NCBI GenBank assembly: GCA_016223045.1
Contig: JACRPT010000150.1
Location: 1 to 38,327 of the forward strand
Direction: 5' to 3'
Length of the DNA: 38,327 nucleotides
Source of the DNA: Candidatus Eiseniibacteriota bacterium
GTDB taxonomy: Bacteria; Eisenbacteria; RBG-16-71-46
Shown here: positions 20,116 through 38,327 of the stretch, piece by piece
How the letters are laid out: the number at the start of each line of letters is the position of its first letter
How positions within the stretch are numbered: position 1 is the first letter of the stretch
Notes under the pieces: model-generated
What the model was told of the DNA's origin: nothing
What the model saw: only the letters and a program-made list of their open reading frames with translations
Database searches by the model: none
Made by a program: the position numbers and the translations under genes

Positions 20116-22068
<1,953 letters not shown>

Positions 22069-23287: not shown

Positions 23288-24988
23288 TCAGATGGCCGCC
23301 GCGCGCCGCCGGCCCAGGAACGGCTCGAGCGCCAGCGCCACCAGCACGACCAGCGCGCAGCCGATCAGGTTGTACCAGAGGAACGAGAGCCCGGAGAGCC
23401 GGAAGCACGCGATCACCGCGGCCTCTGCGACCAGCGCGGCGGTGAACACGGCGCTGCCGCCAACGCGCGGCAGGTAGAACGCGGTGAGGAAGATCCCGAG
23501 GATGGTGCCGTAGAAGAGCGAGCCCAGGATGTTGACCGCCTCGATCAGCGACCCCAGCCGGCTGCACGTCTCGGCGAAGCCCACGGCGACGGCCGCCCAG
23601 CCCAGGGTCGCGAGCCGCGACACCCACACGTCGCGCCGGCCGCCGGCGTCCCGCTTCCACAGCCGCTTCACCACGTCCACCACCGTCGTCGAGGCCAGCG
23701 CGTTGAGCTCGGCCGAGGTGGAGTTCATGGACGCGGCGAACACCGCGGCGAACACGAGCCCGATCAGCCCGACCGGCAGGTGGCCGAGCACGAAGACCAG
23801 GAACACGTAGTTGGTGTCGCTGGTCTGTCCTCCCGGATCGTGCGCGCGGATGAGCTGCGCCGCGCCCTGCCTTGCCTCGCCCAGCGCGCGCTGGTCCTCC
23901 CGCAGCGCCCGCGCCGCGGTCTCCTCCGCAGCCGCGGCGCCGCGATGCCGCGCGGCCAGGAGCTCGCGCGCGTGGGCGGCGCGCGAGACGGCGGCCGCGT
24001 GGTGGCGGTCCTCGAGCGTCCGCCAGGCCGCCGCGCCTTCTCCCGAGGCGAGCCGCGCCGACTCGGCCGGGTTGAAGAACAGCGGCGGCGCGACGAACAG
24101 GTAGAACACGAACACCAGCACGCCCAGCGAGAGGATGCCGAGCTGCATCGGGACCTTCACGAGCCCGTTGAAGACCAGGCCGAGCCGGCTCTGGGCCACC
24201 GAGCGTCCGGTGAGATAGCGCCCCACCTGCGACTGGTCGGTGCCGAAGTAGGAGAGCTGCAGGAAGAAACCGCCGATGAGCCCCGACCACAGGTTGTAGC
24301 GGTCGTCGGGATCGAAATGGAGCTGGAGGGCGTTCATGCGCCCCAGGCGCGCGGCGAGCCAGGCGGCGTCCCCCACGCCGACGCCCGCGGGCAGCGAGGC
24401 CAGGATCATCGCGAACGCCACGACCATCGTGGCCATGATGATCGAGAACTGGAGGACGTGGGAGTGTCCGACCGCCTTGCTCCCACCCGAGGTGGTGTAG
24501 AGCACCACCAGCCCCCCGAGCAGCACGCAGGTCCAGCGCACGTCCCAGCCCAGGATCACCGACAGCACCAGCGCCGGCGCGTAGATGGTGAGACCGGCCG
24601 CCAGGCCGCGCTGGATCAGGAACAGCGTCGCCGCCAGCGTGCGCGTGCCGGGACCGAAACGCCGCTCCAGGAACTCGTAGGCGGTGAAGACGCGCAGGCG
24701 GTGGTAGAGCGGGATCGCGGTGATGCACAGCACCACCATCGCCAGCGGCAGACCGAAGTAGAACTGCACGAAGCGCAACCCGTCGGCGTAGCCCTGCCCC
24801 GGGGTGGAGAGGAAGGTGATCGCGCTGGCCTGCGTGGCCATCACCGAGAGCGCGACCATCGGCCAGCGCATGGAGCGGCCCGCGAGCAGAAAGTCGGTGA
24901 GGTCGCGCTCGCCGCGCCCGCGCCACACGCCGTAGGCCACGAAGCAGGCCAGCGCCCCGAACAGCACGGTCCAGTCGAGCGCGCTCAC
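23288..24988 (-). CDS. Sodium:solute symporter (SSS family)
   Basis: 566-residue polytopic transporter with about 13 hydrophobic segments. Family marks are 'FLLAGRSMRWPMVALSVMATQASAITFLSTPG' in the first helices and 'YFGTDQSQVGRYLTG' (about 247-261). A hydrophilic, Ala/Glu/Arg-rich stretch (residues about 305-392) interrupts the membrane core, is probably helical or coiled-coil, and is not part of a typical family member. The GTG start overlaps the stop of the upstream small gene (GTGA), so the two are coupled. The operon also encodes a PIG-L deacetylase, which suggests uptake of a deacetylated amino sugar or related solute; sodium coupling is inferred from the family. Confidence 0.88.
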   Translation of the reverse strand: MSALDWTVLFGALACFVAYGVWRGRGERDLTDFLLAGRSMRWPMVALSVMATQASAITFLSTPGQGYADGLRFVQFYFGLPLAMVVLCITAIPLYHRLRVFTAYEFLERRFGPGTRTLAATLFLIQRGLAAGLTIYAPALVLSVILGWDVRWTCVLLGGLVVLYTTSGGSKAVGHSHVLQFSIIMATMVVAFAMILASLPAGVGVGDAAWLAARLGRMNALQLHFDPDDRYNLWSGLIGGFFLQLSYFGTDQSQVGRYLTGRSVAQSRLGLVFNGLVKVPMQLGILSLGVLVFVFYLFVAPPLFFNPAESARLASGEGAAAWRTLEDRHHAAAVSRAAHARELLAARHRGAAAAEETAARALREDQRALGEARQGAAQLIRAHDPGGQTSDTNYVFLVFVLGHLPVGLIGLVFAAVFAASMNSTSAELNALASTTVVDVVKRLWKRDAGGRRDVWVSRLATLGWAAVAVGFAETCSRLGSLIEAVNILGSLFYGTILGIFLTAFYLPRVGGSAVFTAALVAEAAVIACFRLSGLSFLWYNLIGCALVVLVALALEPFLGRRRAAAI

Positions 24989-25242
24989 GACCCGAGCCGG
25001 CTGAGCCAGAAGCAGAAGGCGATCACGAGAACGAGGACCGCGAGCACCAGGGCGTAAACGCGCGGCCAGGTGCCGAGGAGCGGAGGCGGCTCGTCCGCGT
25101 CCGGCGCGGCCAGGCCGGAGGAAGGCGGCTCGATGCGATTCGCCGGGATCGGGTGGAGCGGCTGCGGCACGCCGGCGTTCGCGGCGGCAGCGTCCTCCGG
25201 CCGCTCAGCGGCGCGCTCCCCCTCAGCCGGATCCCGCGTCAT
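24985..25242 (-). CDS. Small single-pass membrane protein
   Basis: 85-residue protein with a Pro/Ala-rich N-terminal half and one membrane helix near the C-terminus ('YALVLAVLVLVIAFCFWL'). It begins one base after the stop of the PIG-L gene and its stop overlaps the symporter start, so it is the middle gene of a coupled three-gene operon. An accessory subunit of the symporter is the most natural guess. The alternative ATG at 25257 would overlap the PIG-L stop. No family recognised. Confidence 0.7.
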   Translation of the reverse strand: MTRDPAEGERAAERPEDAAAANAGVPQPLHPIPANRIEPPSSGLAAPDADEPPPLLGTWPRVYALVLAVLVLVIAFCFWLSRLGS

Positions 25243-25243
25243 C

Positions 25244-27757
25244 TCAGCGCGCCGCACTCACCAGGTTGGCGAACAGCCGCCACGCCCCGGGCACGCCCGC
25301 CGGGAGCTGTCGGAAGAACGCGTAGCCGGTGTAGATGAACACGCCCCTGCCGTGGCGCGCGTAGAGCAGGCCGCCGTCGCGCGCCGGCTCGCCCGGGTCG
25401 TTGCACGAGATCACGGTCTCGTACTTCGCGTCCCGCGGGTTCGCGAAGTAGAGCCCGCGCTCCTGGACCCAGCCGGCGAAGTCCTCCGCGCCGATCCGGT
25501 TGGGTGCGGTGAGCAGCGGGTGGCCGGGAGCGAGGAAGCGCACCAGCGCCTCCTCGACCGTCACGCGGTCGCGGGAGATCCTGAACGGGTACGGGCCGAG
25601 CCGGTCCTGCAGCGCGTTCTCGGCGGTGTTGTACTGCACCACCAGCCTGCCCCCGGCCGCGACGTAGTCGAGCAGCCGCCGCTGATGCCCGAGCAGGCGA
25701 GGCCGCGTGTTGTAGGCGCGCACCCCCACCACGATGGCGTCGTAGCGCGAGAGGTCGCCCTCCTCGATGTCCTCGTCGCCCAGCAGCGTGACGTGGAAGC
25801 CCATCTGCCGCAGCGCCTCGGGAACCTCATCGCCGGCGCCGGTCACGTAGCCGATCTCGCGGCCCGCGGCCGCGAGTTCCACGCGCACCAGCTTCGCCTC
25901 CGCGGGCGGCAGCATGATCTGGACCGGGATGTGACGATGGGCGATCTGCACCAGCCCCGCGCCGTGGCGCTCGCCTCCCATCTCGAAGACGGCGCCCGCC
26001 GCCCCCACCGCGGGGCCGCCGGCCGGAGTCACCGTGAAGCGGACGGTGGTATCCGCTTCGCCCGCCGGGAGCACGACCGGCGCGGCGGGCGGCACGGCCT
26101 GCCATCCCTCCGGCAGCGCGAGCCGCAGCGTGCCCGACACCGGGACGTCGGCGCTCCGCACCGTCACGCGGATCTCCCGCGATCGCACGTCGGGGAACAG
26201 GTACGCGCCGTGGTCGAAGCGCAGCGTGACCGGCGGCACCACGTCGAAGGCGCGATAGCGCTCGCCCTCGACCGGGTCGGTCCAGCGGTACACGACCGGC
26301 GCCTCGCAGACCAGACTCTCTCCTGCCGCGGCCAGCACGAAGCGCGCGACCAGCGCCGGGGCGTTCTCCGCGTCGCCGATCAGGCGCTGGTCCGCGACCT
26401 CGAACGAGCCGGCGAGCGGGCGCGCGCGCAGCCAGTAGGGCGGCGTGGTCGCCAGCTCCCGCGGCAGGCTCACCTGGAACGTGTCGGTCGCCGCCGTGTT
26501 GAACGCCAGCGCCCGCGCGCCGTCGCGCTGCGCGAGCGCAGGGCGGTCATCGCCGATCAGCTCCACCCGCTCCAGCCGGAGCGCCGCGTCGCTGCGCAGG
26601 ATCGCGGCGGTCACCACCCGGAGCGGACTTCCCGGGGAGGCGCTCGGCGCGGCGGCGACCGCCTCGAGCCACAGCCCGGCGCAGGAGCGGATCAGCTCGA
26701 GCAGCTCGGTGCGCTTCCGCTCGACCATCGGCTCCGCGGGCAACGCCGCCAGGATCGCGTGCGCGCGCAGCAGCAGTGGCAGGATCGCCTGCGGGCGCTC
26801 GGGTCTGAACTCGCGCAGGGCCTGCTCGAAGAGCGGCGTGAGCTTCGCTCCCCCCGCGATGCGCGACCAGCCGAGGTTCACGCCGTCGAACAGGTCGCGC
26901 TCGGCGCGCTCGCCGCCGCGGTGCTCGAAGCTGTTGCTCCACGCGCCGCGGCGCTCGGCCGAGCCGAATCCCTGGCTCTTGTGCATGGTGCGCGCCTCGC
27001 CCGCGATCTCGGTGTACGAGCGCCCGAGCAGCGCGTTGTACGCCCCGACGTCCACCTGGATCCGCCCGGGCACGGTGTCCGGTCCGGCCCCGCCGAAGCG
27101 GAAGACGTTCCACACGATCCGCTTCGCCTGCCACGGCCGCACCCGGCGGAGCTGCTCGGGGAACCGAGTCGAGTCGCCCGCCGCCCGGAAGGCCTCCTCC
27201 GCGAGGATCGCCGAGGCCGTGTGGTGCCCGTGCCCGCCGCTTCCGTCGGTGGGGAACCGGGTGAGGATGACGTCCGGGCGGAAGCGGCGGATCACCCACA
27301 CCACGTCGGCCAGGATCCGCTCGCGGCCCCAGATCGCGAGGGTCTCGTCGGGGTCCTTGGAGTAGCCGAAGTCCACCGCCCGGCTGAAGAACTGCTCCGC
27401 GCCGTCCACCCGCCGCGCGCCCAGCAACTCCTGGGTGCGGATCACGCCCAGCGGCGCGCCGATCTCCGTGCCGATCAGGTTCTGCCCGCCGTCGCCACGG
27501 GTGAGCGACAGGTAGCCGGTGCGCACCAGCCGGCCCTTCGAGAGCCAGGCCAGCACCGCAGTGTTCTCGTCGTCCGGGTGCGCGCCGACGTAGAGCGCGC
27601 TCCCCACCACATTGATCTTCTGCAACGCCAGCCGGATCGCGGCGGCGTCCATCGCCTCGGGCGGCCGCGGGTCGGCCGCGGCGGGCATCAACGCAGATGC
27701 GGCCGTGAGGGCGAGGATGAACGTGACGAGCAGGCGGCGGGACACGGATGCGGACAT
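25244..27757 (-). CDS. Secreted PIG-L-family deacetylase with large C-terminal region
   Basis: 837-residue exported protein with a signal peptide (1-28, ending AAA-D). The PIG-L/LmbE zinc deacetylase domain follows: 'GAHPDDENT' (AHPDDE, residues 59-64) and 'GHGHHTASA' (176-183) supply the metal ligands and catalytic Asp. This fold removes acetyl groups from N-acetylglucosaminyl compounds. Residues about 400-600 are beta-rich; about 600-837 resemble a glutamine-amidotransferase-like fold ('YDAIVVGVRAYNTRPRLL', 'VAAGGRLVVQYNTAE', 'FIYTGYAFFRQLPAG'). GAGGAG precedes ATG 27757. It heads an operon with the small membrane protein and the symporter. Export means the substrate is outside the cytoplasm, unlike bacillithiol or mycothiol enzymes. 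Substrate unknown. Confidence 0.85.
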   Translation of the reverse strand: MSASVSRRLLVTFILALTAASALMPAAADPRPPEAMDAAAIRLALQKINVVGSALYVGAHPDDENTAVLAWLSKGRLVRTGYLSLTRGDGGQNLIGTEIGAPLGVIRTQELLGARRVDGAEQFFSRAVDFGYSKDPDETLAIWGRERILADVVWVIRRFRPDVILTRFPTDGSGGHGHHTASAILAEEAFRAAGDSTRFPEQLRRVRPWQAKRIVWNVFRFGGAGPDTVPGRIQVDVGAYNALLGRSYTEIAGEARTMHKSQGFGSAERRGAWSNSFEHRGGERAERDLFDGVNLGWSRIAGGAKLTPLFEQALREFRPERPQAILPLLLRAHAILAALPAEPMVERKRTELLELIRSCAGLWLEAVAAAPSASPGSPLRVVTAAILRSDAALRLERVELIGDDRPALAQRDGARALAFNTAATDTFQVSLPRELATTPPYWLRARPLAGSFEVADQRLIGDAENAPALVARFVLAAAGESLVCEAPVVYRWTDPVEGERYRAFDVVPPVTLRFDHGAYLFPDVRSREIRVTVRSADVPVSGTLRLALPEGWQAVPPAAPVVLPAGEADTTVRFTVTPAGGPAVGAAGAVFEMGGERHGAGLVQIAHRHIPVQIMLPPAEAKLVRVELAAAGREIGYVTGAGDEVPEALRQMGFHVTLLGDEDIEEGDLSRYDAIVVGVRAYNTRPRLLGHQRRLLDYVAAGGRLVVQYNTAENALQDRLGPYPFRISRDRVTVEEALVRFLAPGHPLLTAPNRIGAEDFAGWVQERGLYFANPRDAKYETVISCNDPGEPARDGGLLYARHGRGVFIYTGYAFFRQLPAGVPGAWRLFANLVSAAR

Positions 27758-28997: not shown

Positions 28998-30584
28998 CTA
29001 CCCCGGGAGCCGCATCGGGACCCCGGGCCCGATCGGCCAGCCGAGCGCGTAGAACAGGAACAGGAGCGCCGTCCAGAAGATGAGGAAGGCGATCGAGTAC
29101 GGCAGCATCATCGCGATGAGCGTGCCGGTGCCGGCCTTCGGGTCGTAGCGCCGCACCGCCGCGATCAGGATGGGCAGGTAGGGGAAGCAGGGCGTGATGA
29201 TGTTCACCACCGAGGCGCCGATGCGGAACACCACCTGCGTGCACTCCGGCGTGAAACCGAGCATGGCGAACATCGGCACGAACACCGGGGCCATCATCGC
29301 CCACTTGGCCGAGGCCGAGGTGATGAAGAAGTCGAGCGACGCGGAAAACGCGAGCAGGCCCAGCAGCAGCGGCCCGCCCTGCAGGCCGAGGTGCTTGAGG
29401 AACGACGCCCCCGAGATCGCCACGATCGCCCCCAGGTTCGACCAGTTGAAGTACGAGACGAACTGGGCGGCGGCGAAGGCCAGCACGATGTAGGTGCCCA
29501 TGGTCCCGAGCGACTCGCCGGCCATCTTCGCCACGTCGCGATCGCTGCGGACCTGCCCCGTGGCCAGGCCGTAGGCCAGCCCCGGGATGAAGAACAGGAT
29601 CATGATGAGCACCACGATGCTGTCGAAGAACGGCTTGAGCTGCGCCACCGCGGTCGCGCCGGTGTTGCGGAGCGGCGCCCAGGAGGGCAGCACCAGCAGC
29701 AGGAACAGCACGAGCGTGGGCACGGTCGCGAGCCCCGCGGCGCGCAGCCCGCGGCGCTCCACCGGGGTGATCTCCGCGAGCCGGTGCTCCTCCGGCGGCC
29801 GGCCGTCCGCCGCGGGCTTCCAGGGCCCCAGCCGCGGCTCGACGACGCGATGCGTGACCCAGGTCCCCACGACGGTCAGCACCGGGGCGGTCACCGCGAG
29901 GAAGAAGTAGTTGCCCAGCACCTGCGGCTCGTAGCCGGGCAGCAGCTTCGACGCCGTGGTCGCCTCCTGCGTGAAGCCGATGAGGAGCACGTCGAGCGGG
30001 GACGGCAGCACGTTCGCGCTGAAGGCGCCGGCGACCCCAGCGAAGGCGGCGGCCAGCCCGGCCAGCGGGTGCCGCCCCGCGGCGGCGAAGAGCAGCGCCC
30101 CGATGGGCGGCAGGATGATGACGCCCGCGTCGGCCGCGAGGTGGGCGAGCATCCCGGCGAAGACCACGGTGGCGGTGAGCAGGGTGCGCGGCATGCTCGC
30201 CATGAAGGCGCGCAGCGAGAGCGCGATGAGACCCGTGCGCTCGGCCACGCCCACGCCGATCATCGCCACCAGCACGATGCCGAGGGGCGCGAAGCCGGTG
30301 AAGTTGCGCACCGCCTCGGTGAACATGCGCCGGATGCCCTCGCGGTCCAGCAGGTTCACCGCGGTGATGAGCGAACCGTCCTTCGGGTGGATGGCCGTGA
30401 CGTGGAGCCGCGCGGCGAGCCACGAGATCACGAGGACCAGGGCCGCCATGATCAGGAAGATCGAGATCGGGTCGGGCAGCCGGTTCCCGATGCGCTCGAT
30501 CGCGTCGAGCAGGCCCGTCAGCCCGCGCGCGGGGCGGCGCGGCTTTCCCCCTGCCGCTGCGGGCGGTGCTCGTCTGGCGCTCAT
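28998..30584 (-). CDS. AbgT-family transporter
   Basis: 528-residue inner-membrane protein of the AbgT family (p-aminobenzoyl-glutamate importer or sulfonamide/antimetabolite exporter). Family signatures include 'IERIGNRLPDPISIFLIMAALVLVISWL' at the start, 'GVAERTGLI', 'HLAADAGVIILPPIGALLF', and the hairpin regions 'GAFSANVLPSPLDVLL' and 'NIITPCFPYLPILIAA'. GGGAGG precedes ATG 30584, which fixes the start (an upstream ATG at 30833 gives a non-hydrophobic leader). It is first in a unit with the NnrS-like gene. A palindrome lies about 105 bases upstream. Direction of transport cannot be read from sequence. Confidence 0.92.
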   Translation of the reverse strand: MSARRAPPAAAGGKPRRPARGLTGLLDAIERIGNRLPDPISIFLIMAALVLVISWLAARLHVTAIHPKDGSLITAVNLLDREGIRRMFTEAVRNFTGFAPLGIVLVAMIGVGVAERTGLIALSLRAFMASMPRTLLTATVVFAGMLAHLAADAGVIILPPIGALLFAAAGRHPLAGLAAAFAGVAGAFSANVLPSPLDVLLIGFTQEATTASKLLPGYEPQVLGNYFFLAVTAPVLTVVGTWVTHRVVEPRLGPWKPAADGRPPEEHRLAEITPVERRGLRAAGLATVPTLVLFLLLVLPSWAPLRNTGATAVAQLKPFFDSIVVLIMILFFIPGLAYGLATGQVRSDRDVAKMAGESLGTMGTYIVLAFAAAQFVSYFNWSNLGAIVAISGASFLKHLGLQGGPLLLGLLAFSASLDFFITSASAKWAMMAPVFVPMFAMLGFTPECTQVVFRIGASVVNIITPCFPYLPILIAAVRRYDPKAGTGTLIAMMLPYSIAFLIFWTALLFLFYALGWPIGPGVPMRLPG

Positions 30585-30689
30585 CGGTGCGACCTCCCCT
30601 CGCGGCCGGGCCGGGAAACCGGCGTGAGCGGGCCAGCCTATCCGCGGCCCGGGCAGAGGTCCAGAGAAGTCGTCTGCGGTGTTTCGAGT

Positions 30690-30717
30690 GTCACCCCCGA
30701 GTGTGTAGTCGGGTGAC
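30690..30717. promoter_or_regulatory. Candidate operator palindrome
   Basis: GTCACCC (30690-30696) and GGGTGAC (30711-30717) are perfect inverted repeats, extended inside by GA/TC after a two-base bulge, with an 8-base loop. It lies about 105 bases upstream of the AbgT-type gene start. It could be a dimeric repressor site or an RNA hairpin. Confidence 0.4.
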
Positions 30718-30796
30718 AACGGAACGGCCGCGGCGGGCGCTGGCACGCGGAAAACCGCGGAATCCCCGGTGTACGCCGGGGGCACGTCCCTTGCAA

Positions 30797-36986: not shown

Positions 36987-38327
36987 TCACCTGGTCATCA
37001 CGACCCGGCGCACCAGCACGCGCCCCGGCACGCGCAGCCTGACGAAGTAGAGTCCCGGCCGCGCGCCGCCGCGCGCGGCGGCGTCCCACTCCGCCTGGTG
37101 GCGCCCGGGCGCGTACGCGCCGTCGGCCAGCACCGCCACCTCGCGGCCCTGGATGTCCAGCACGCTCAGGCGCAGGCCGCACGCCCGCGGGACCGCGAAG
37201 CCGATGCGGGCGCTGCCGCGCAGCGGGTTGGGCCACACCGGCGCCAGCTCGAAGTCGGTGACCGCTCCCGATTCCACGCCCACGCCACTGGTGATGGTGA
37301 ATGCGGCGTCACTCAGGTCGAAGCGCGCGTTGCCCGCCGCGTCGCGGGCGATGACCTTGAGGAACGCGTCGGTCGTCGCCGGACCGGTGACCGTCCAGCC
37401 GTAGCTGCCGCTGTTCCCGAGGCCGGTCGCGAGCGAGTCGTACGGGCCCGCGGCCCCGGCGCGGGAGAGGAACAGGTCCACCGCCGTCACCGCCACGTTG
37501 TCCGTCGCGGTCCAGCTCAGGGTGGCCGTCGAGCCGATGCCCAGCAGCTCGCCGCCATTCGGGGCCACCACGAGCAGCGCAGGGCCAGCGGTGTCGGCGA
37601 AGGTGGCGGTCACCGCCTTGTCCGCGGTCATCACCAGCGTGACCGGGTTGGCGACGCCGCTGGTGTCTCCGCTCCAGCCCGTGAACGCCCAGCCCGAGTC
37701 GGGCGCCGCCGTGAGCTGGACGCTGGCTCCGTGGTCGTAGGACGCCTGGCTGGGGTTCTTCGTGACCGAGCCCCCGCCCACCACGGTCACCGTGAGCGTG
37801 TGGGTGTCGATCGCGAAGCTCGCGGCGATGGTGTGGTTCGCCGTCACGTTCGGGAAGTTGTAGCCGGTCACCGCGCCGACCGATCCGCCGTCCACCAGCA
37901 CGTCGGCCACGTGGTAGCCGGGGTCGGGCGCGATGGTGAACGCCTGGCTCGCACCGCAGAGCACCGGCACCGCCCCGCCCGGCGTGATGCTGCCGTTCGC
38001 CCCCGCGCTCGCCGCGATCGTGAACGTGTCGCGCGCGAAGCTCGCCGCGATGGTGTGGTTCGCCGTCACGTTCGGGAAGTTGTAGCTGGTCACCGCGCCG
38101 ACCGACCCACCGTCCACCAGCACGTCGGCCACGTGGTAGCAGGTGTCCGGGGTGATGGTGAACGCCTGGCTCGCACCGTGGCTCACCGGCACCGCGCCGC
38201 TCGGAGCGATCGCGCCGTTGGCGCCGGCGCTCGCCGTGATGGTGTGGATGTCGATCGCGAAGCTCGCGGCGATGGTGTGGTTCGCCGTCACGTTCGGGAA
38301 GTTGTAGCTGGTCACCGCGCCGACCGA
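36987..38327 (-). CDS. Large repeat-containing surface protein, C-terminal part (5' end beyond window)
   Basis: The visible 447 residues are the C-terminus of a longer exported protein whose start lies past 38327. Residues 1-about 175 are copies of a 74-residue repeat with 'YNFPNVTANHTIAASFA' and 'GYHVADVLVDGGSVGAVT', like the bacterial beta-repeats that follow InlB/BACON-type patterns. A related 'GGGSVTKNPSQASYDHGASVQLTAAPDSGWAFTGWSGD' repeat and an Ig-like domain ('APNGGELLGIGSTATLSWTATDN') follow. The last about 85 residues are a sorting tail ('VWPNPLRGSARIGFAVP', 'LDIQGREVAVL', 'PGLYFVRL', 'RRVVMTR'). It is expected on the cell surface, for adhesion or binding. Only the C-terminal end is certain. 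Confidence 0.85.
   Translation of the reverse strand, partial: SVGAVTSYNFPNVTANHTIAASFAIDIHTITASAGANGAIAPSGAVPVSHGASQAFTITPDTCYHVADVLVDGGSVGAVTSYNFPNVTANHTIAASFARDTFTIAASAGANGSITPGGAVPVLCGASQAFTIAPDPGYHVADVLVDGGSVGAVTGYNFPNVTANHTIAASFAIDTHTLTVTVVGGGSVTKNPSQASYDHGASVQLTAAPDSGWAFTGWSGDTSGVANPVTLVMTADKAVTATFADTAGPALLVVAPNGGELLGIGSTATLSWTATDNVAVTAVDLFLSRAGAAGPYDSLATGLGNSGSYGWTVTGPATTDAFLKVIARDAAGNARFDLSDAAFTITSGVGVESGAVTDFELAPVWPNPLRGSARIGFAVPRACGLRLSVLDIQGREVAVLADGAYAPGRHQAEWDAAARGGARPGLYFVRLRVPGRVLVRRVVMTR
37800..38327 (-). repeat. Tandem 222-bp repeats inside surface protein gene
   Basis: The same sequence recurs exactly 222 bases apart: the segment starting GTGTGGTTCGCCGTCACG is at 37831, 38053 and 38275. 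At least 2.4 copies are in the window and the array continues past its end. The unit is 74 codons, so copy changes keep the frame. Confidence 0.9.

Follow-up and report, generated by a model that had tools for sequence, protein, structure and literature searches.

A conserved PIG-L and symporter gene set suggests an uptake module with a two-part sodium symporter

Four neighboring genes in an Eisenbacteria draft genome seem, on balance, likely to form a conserved uptake module made up of an envelope PIG-L hydrolase, a two-part sodium/solute symporter of the SSF family and a DUF2911 helper protein. In the mechanism that we propose, an exported zinc-dependent PIG-L enzyme would cleave an N-acyl compound, perhaps an N-acetylated amino-sugar-like one, outside the inner membrane, and the sodium symporter would import a product of this cleavage. 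A translationally coupled single-helix protein would work as a dedicated subunit of the symporter, and the DUF2911 protein, likewise exported and ending in a TPR-like tail, may assist, perhaps in substrate binding or docking. We infer that the PIG-L protein and the symporter share a substrate.

The window, by which we mean the whole stretch of 38,327 nucleotides that was analyzed, is one contig of a 3.88-Mb draft genome. A preliminary description of this DNA had proposed a coupled operon of three genes, and the coordinates, frames, single-base spacing and GTGA overlap that it gave were all reproduced (Table 1). The PIG-L stop codon (25244-25246) is followed by one base (25243) and then by the ATG of the small gene (25240-25242), whose own stop codon (24985-24987) is overlapped by the GTG start of the symporter (24986-24988). 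A search of the open-licence literature found no paper on this gene set, which does not prove that none exists. Upstream of the PIG-L gene on the same strand lies an AbgT-family transporter gene (PF03806, 622.9 bits; 28998-30725, reverse strand), and a seven-helix protein is encoded between the two; neither neighbor was matched in the 100 homologous loci. The reverse-strand gene at 36987-38315 codes for a protein that has InlB-type B repeats and weakly matches FlgD-like Ig.

Table 1. Positions in the window of the four genes, the small gene-symporter junction and the protein regions discussed in the text
Feature	Coordinates	Strand	Remarks
DUF2911 protein, 289 aa	22324..23193	+	Signal-like N-terminus; convergent with the symporter gene; PF11138, 163.4 bits
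SSF-family sodium/solute symporter, 566 aa	23288..24988	-	GTG start
Charged insert of about 80 residues (residues ~303-391)	23816..24082	-	Symporter loop between hydrophobic segments
GTGA stop/start overlap	24985..24988	-	Small gene and symporter gene
Small single-helix membrane protein, 85 aa	24985..25242	-	Conserved core DEPPPLLGTWPRVYALV...; proposed symporter subunit
PIG-L family protein, 837 aa	25244..27757	-	N-terminal hydrophobic (signal-like) stretch, PIG-L domain, helical linker, beta domains, GATase1/ThuA-like domain
GATase1/ThuA-like domain (residues 631-837)	25247..25867	-	Fold match
Beta-sandwich domains (residues ~362-630)	25868..26674	-	Model secondary structure; pLDDT mostly >90
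PIG-L catalytic domain (residues 50-296)	26870..27610	-	MshB fold; AHPDD motif

The PIG-L protein matches PF02585 with 55.4 bits against a cut-off of 28.2, and its structure was modeled with a pLDDT of 91.1 and a pTM of 0.89. Structure comparison of the model matched residues 50-296 to MshB (4ewl; Z 22.5, r.m.s.d. 2.9 over 228 residues). A sequence search against the PDB returned no match for the protein whereas a profile search did, and in the profile comparison its zinc-site residues align with those of MshB, for which a published account lists His13, Asp16 and His147 as zinc ligands (PMC4101496). The AHPDD motif (H60, D62 and D63) and H179 are invariant in all 70 aligned sequences, comprising the window protein and those of 69 of 98 homologous loci after partial sequences and close repeats were left out. 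With this motif, a zinc-binding histidine and, in the model, a Rossmann-like LmbE fold, the protein falls within the PIG-L/LmbE-like superfamily, and we predict that it is a zinc-dependent amide hydrolase acting in de-N-acylation. A hydrophobic stretch at residues 8-28, read from the sequence, suggests export to the envelope. Because its scores lie far below the NCBIfam equivalog cut-offs for MshB (25.9 against 224.35 bits), Mca (40.2 against 277.15) and BshB1 (23.8 against 182.5), we file it under none of these enzymes.

The large C-terminal region noted in the preliminary description is present, and structure prediction now resolves it into beta-sandwich folds followed by a GATase1/ThuA-like domain. 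In the model the latter matches 2gk3 (Z 17.4), 3rht (16.6) and 1t0b (16.1). It lacks the cysteine nucleophile of an active class I glutamine amidotransferase: C785 is the sole cysteine in residues 631-837, and Q708-Y709 follow the strand in 70 of 70 sequences, a position at which we would place the nucleophile elbow. Along with these two residues, W763, Q765, E766 and R816 are invariant across the same alignment.

To ask whether the gene order is shared, as the preliminary description had suggested checking, we compared 98 distinct loci, which are 100 loci minus two duplicates (L055 and L056, of L036 and L039). The named loci were the best 80 of at least 586 confirmed PIG-L relatives in a collection of named species; as the best-scoring loci were chosen, our counts apply to proteins closely related to that of the window. 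An SSF gene lies downstream on the same strand in 72 loci and is missing in 21 that have room for it, and the remaining five end too early. The order is thus kept in 72 of 93 testable loci, which is more than a chance arrangement, and the genes form a conserved unit as claimed. The symporter starts within 520 bp in 66 of the 72, and the exact 4-nt overlap with the small gene recurs in 54. This arrangement is found in Eisenbacteria, Acidobacteria, Ignavibacteria, many Bacteroidota and, with a gap of 3.5 kb, Aminicenantes. The loci also include single drafts labeled Myxococcales and Rickettsiales, although these labels may be wrong.

Among 59 related genomes, PIG-L relatives occur in 21, host genome included. 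An SSF ortholog was found in 19 of these 21 and in none of the other 38 (Fisher 1.5e-13, ignoring relatedness), and the two exceptions both break off at contig edges. In 20 genomes the PIG-L gene has no adjacent SSF gene; 13 of them carry an intact SSF gene elsewhere, one a broken one and six yield no match at 1e-40. These six, together with the 21 loci without a downstream symporter, indicate that PIG-L can manage without this SSF protein, and since DUF2911 also occurs without PIG-L, the module is not indivisible. Clustering of neighboring genes revealed no conserved neighbor of the module that would serve in the catabolism of a named product, and the neighbors of symporters lying away from PIG-L pointed to no common pathway beyond DUF2911 (4 of 72 proteins). 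At one of the 21 loci (L051) the PIG-L and SSF genes adjoin head to head on divergent strands; their proteins are about 32% and 42% identical to those of the window, and that genome has no DUF2911 match. SSF orthologs are fragmented by in-frame stops at L148/L149 and L147/L153, perhaps as pseudogenes or through assembly errors.

We examined the small gene with one fixed test, which required an ORF to stop close to where the next gene starts and to encode a tryptophan followed by an aromatic residue, and a hydrophobic tail. Such an ORF precedes 67 of the 72 symporter genes compared to 6 of 875 other genes in the same loci. Of the five symporters without one at their start, two (L034 and L035) leave no space for it, and at L057 a small gene lies 173 bp upstream. 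The family consists of a conserved single helix of about 40 residues. Counting from the tryptophan in 68 sequences, the conserved columns are V+7 (57 sequences), L+11 (62), I+15 (55), T+22 (54) and F/Y+25 (63), which form one face of the helix; the W and +4 columns are partly imposed by the search pattern, which demands W and an aromatic residue or histidine at +4, and the other conserved columns are not. When 69 small proteins were compared with Pfam and NCBIfam at E up to 0.1, no family was common to more than three members, and the families listed, 20 from Pfam and 4 from NCBIfam, did not include the models for DUF485/YjcH, YhdT, DUF4212 or MetS, which we take to be the known small-subunit families of SSF and NSS transporters. 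Between PIG-L and the small gene, a further small ORF, whose product has two hydrophobic stretches, occurs in Chitinophaga and relatives (L083, L084, L088, L107, L114, L131 and L132) and also at L081, L108 and L118.

The split genomes show which partner the small gene follows. It precedes the symporter in 10 of the 13 cases in which an intact SSF gene lies away from PIG-L and is missing in three; it follows a lone PIG-L gene in just one of the 20 genomes, whose symporter is without one (the loci concerned, both in this genome, are L082 and L136). Four more distant SSF paralogs all lack it. Because the small gene stays with the symporter when PIG-L is elsewhere, it belongs with the symporter and is probably its subunit, a physical role that we propose. 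The E. coli genes acs-yjcH-actP are described as pairing a small protein with an SSF acetate permease (PMC6498577). The preliminary description had placed the small protein in the operon; its tie is to the symporter, and the DUF2911 member had been overlooked.

The symporter itself matches PF00474 with 95.4 bits (cut-off 22.8) and TIGR00813 with 192.9 bits (cut-off 184), which identifies it as an SSF protein. A transporter of proline only had been named in advance as an outcome that would speak against the operon reading. This is not indicated, given a PutP score of 57.4 bits that lies far below the cut-off of 515.5; the PanF score of 31.1 bits likewise stays under its cut-off of 328.05. Among 86 orthologs, T52-Q53-A54-S55-A56 is invariant in 85 of 85 sequences and R127 in 84 of 84. 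A buried glutamate, E427, was invariant in the first 15 sequences, but once more sequences were included just 57 of 81 keep it, and we dropped an argument for amine binding that was based on it. By SSF topology, the loop holding the charged insert faces outward; we would guess that the insert could meet PIG-L or the DUF2911 protein there.

The fourth protein is a member of DUF2911, scoring 163.4 bits against a gathering score of 27. Its model (pLDDT 92.7) comprises a beta domain (residues 36-179) and TPR-like helices (182-287). A Foldseek search of the beta domain against the PDB and a viral library returned nothing at E <=0.001, which does not show a new fold, and a second structure search covered mainly the TPR part. 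Of the 21 relatives that carry this PIG-L, 19 also have DUF2911, compared to none of the 38 that lack it (p 1.5e-13, ignoring relatedness); within the host's own class alone the figures are 19 of 21 and 0 of 26, and within one family it accompanies PIG-L in 15 of 16 genomes and is missing from all four without PIG-L. COX1 is carried by 21 of 21 PIG-L genomes compared to 21 of 38 others, which makes an aerobic lifestyle a partial confounder of this co-occurrence. Restricting the comparison to COX1-bearing genomes left the association in place (19 of 21 with PIG-L, 0 of 21 without). In a second sample, 118 genomes from the Pontibacter roseus phylum, DUF2911 occurs in 34 of 34 genomes with PIG-L and in 43 of 84 without, and it lies within 6 kb of PIG-L in at least 21 of the 34. 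A convergent DUF2911 gene no more than 5.5 kb from the end of the SSF gene was found in 43 of 72 loci compared to 3 of 13 split loci, and 21 of the 72 have the space yet no DUF2911 nearby. A published table of secretome proteins also lists a DUF2911 member (PMC4666044). The frames of this family are either long (about 280-350 aa) or short (about 170-210 aa), often with several in one genome; next to PIG-L they are mainly of the long kind, though some short ones occur there too.

We weighed the uptake module against other readings of the same genes. PIG-L might instead deacetylate one of the cell's own envelope glycans or lipids while the symporter imports something unrelated, with only regulation shared. 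The loci and genomes in which PIG-L does without an adjacent or any matched symporter are consistent with this, and the large beta and GATase1/ThuA-like domains would suit binding of a big target. Since no SSF ortholog was found without PIG-L in the 59 relatives and the gene order is kept across phyla, we consider this reading unlikely. The full proposal of the preliminary description, scavenging of N-acetyl sugars with the acetate recovered by a neighboring acs gene, we hold to be very improbable. The solved PIG-L relatives do include diacetylchitobiose deacetylases, and the window does contain acs (20116-22068, reverse strand), but an opposite-strand DUF2911 gene separates it from the symporter, and acs was found in 0 of the 100 homologous loci (98 distinct, some short), so we rejected the acs link as a conserved feature. 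PF01182, tried as a marker for a glucosamine pathway, proved unusable because the family is not specific.

A further reading connects the module to bacillithiol: PIG-L would be an Mca-like envelope amidase acting on exported bacillithiol conjugates, and the symporter would take back the sugar-malate part. Mca is the best, if weak, NCBIfam match of the protein and MshB its closest fold, bshC adjoins another PIG-L gene in the host genome, and the phyla reported to have bacillithiol genes overlap those of the module (PMC6282198). Co-occurrence at first looked strong: 20 of the 21 relatives carrying this PIG-L have bshC, as do 49 of 50 further PIG-L genomes. This argument carries no weight, because bshC is present in 196 of the 198 genomes of a background phylum sample. 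Within the class, bshC occurs in 20 of 21 genomes with PIG-L and 21 of 26 without (p 0.20), and in one genome (86% complete) the module is found without any bshC match. We judge this reading quite improbable. Its most elaborate form, in which a two-subunit symporter with an obligate helix of a new family is fed by such an amidase while DUF2911 serves in docking or binding, appears very improbable; if true, it would amount to a recycling route for thiol detoxification outside the cytoplasm. The host's other PIG-L gene beside bshC (contig C103, ~460-2273) fits bacillithiol synthesis, and a third lies at C142:27516-27884.

The uptake module that we favor gives a functional context to DUF2911, a family without known function, and its small protein suggests that tiny symporter subunits include a new family, one left unnamed by automatic annotation. 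If that protein is needed for transport, it would provide a clear added case of a two-part sodium/solute symporter. As the module occurs in cultured Bacteroidota (Pontibacter, Chitinophaga, Hymenobacter, Mucilaginibacter and Roseivirga), its substrate should be findable by ordinary genetics.

Compared with known systems, the window PIG-L shares the MshB fold and zinc-site residues of the LmbE-like enzymes MshB, Mca, BshB and diacetylchitobiose deacetylase, and differs from them in its apparent export, its length of 837 aa and its extra beta and GATase1/ThuA-like domains. The DUF2911 protein is a PF11138 member with a TPR-like tail that we place in the module. By profile, the nearest solved relatives of the symporter are SiaT, SMCT1, SMVT and NIS, from which its family is set apart by the invariant TQASA, R127 and the small partner gene; SiaT has 13 residues in the loop where the window protein carries the charged insert. 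PanF-YhdT and MetP-MetS are further small-protein/symporter pairs, and in these, as in acs-yjcH-actP, the gene for a small membrane protein directly precedes that for a LeuT-fold symporter. Unlike YjcH, YhdT and MetS, the small proteins described here have one helix of about 40 residues and, among the matches listed, none to the Pfam families of those subunits.
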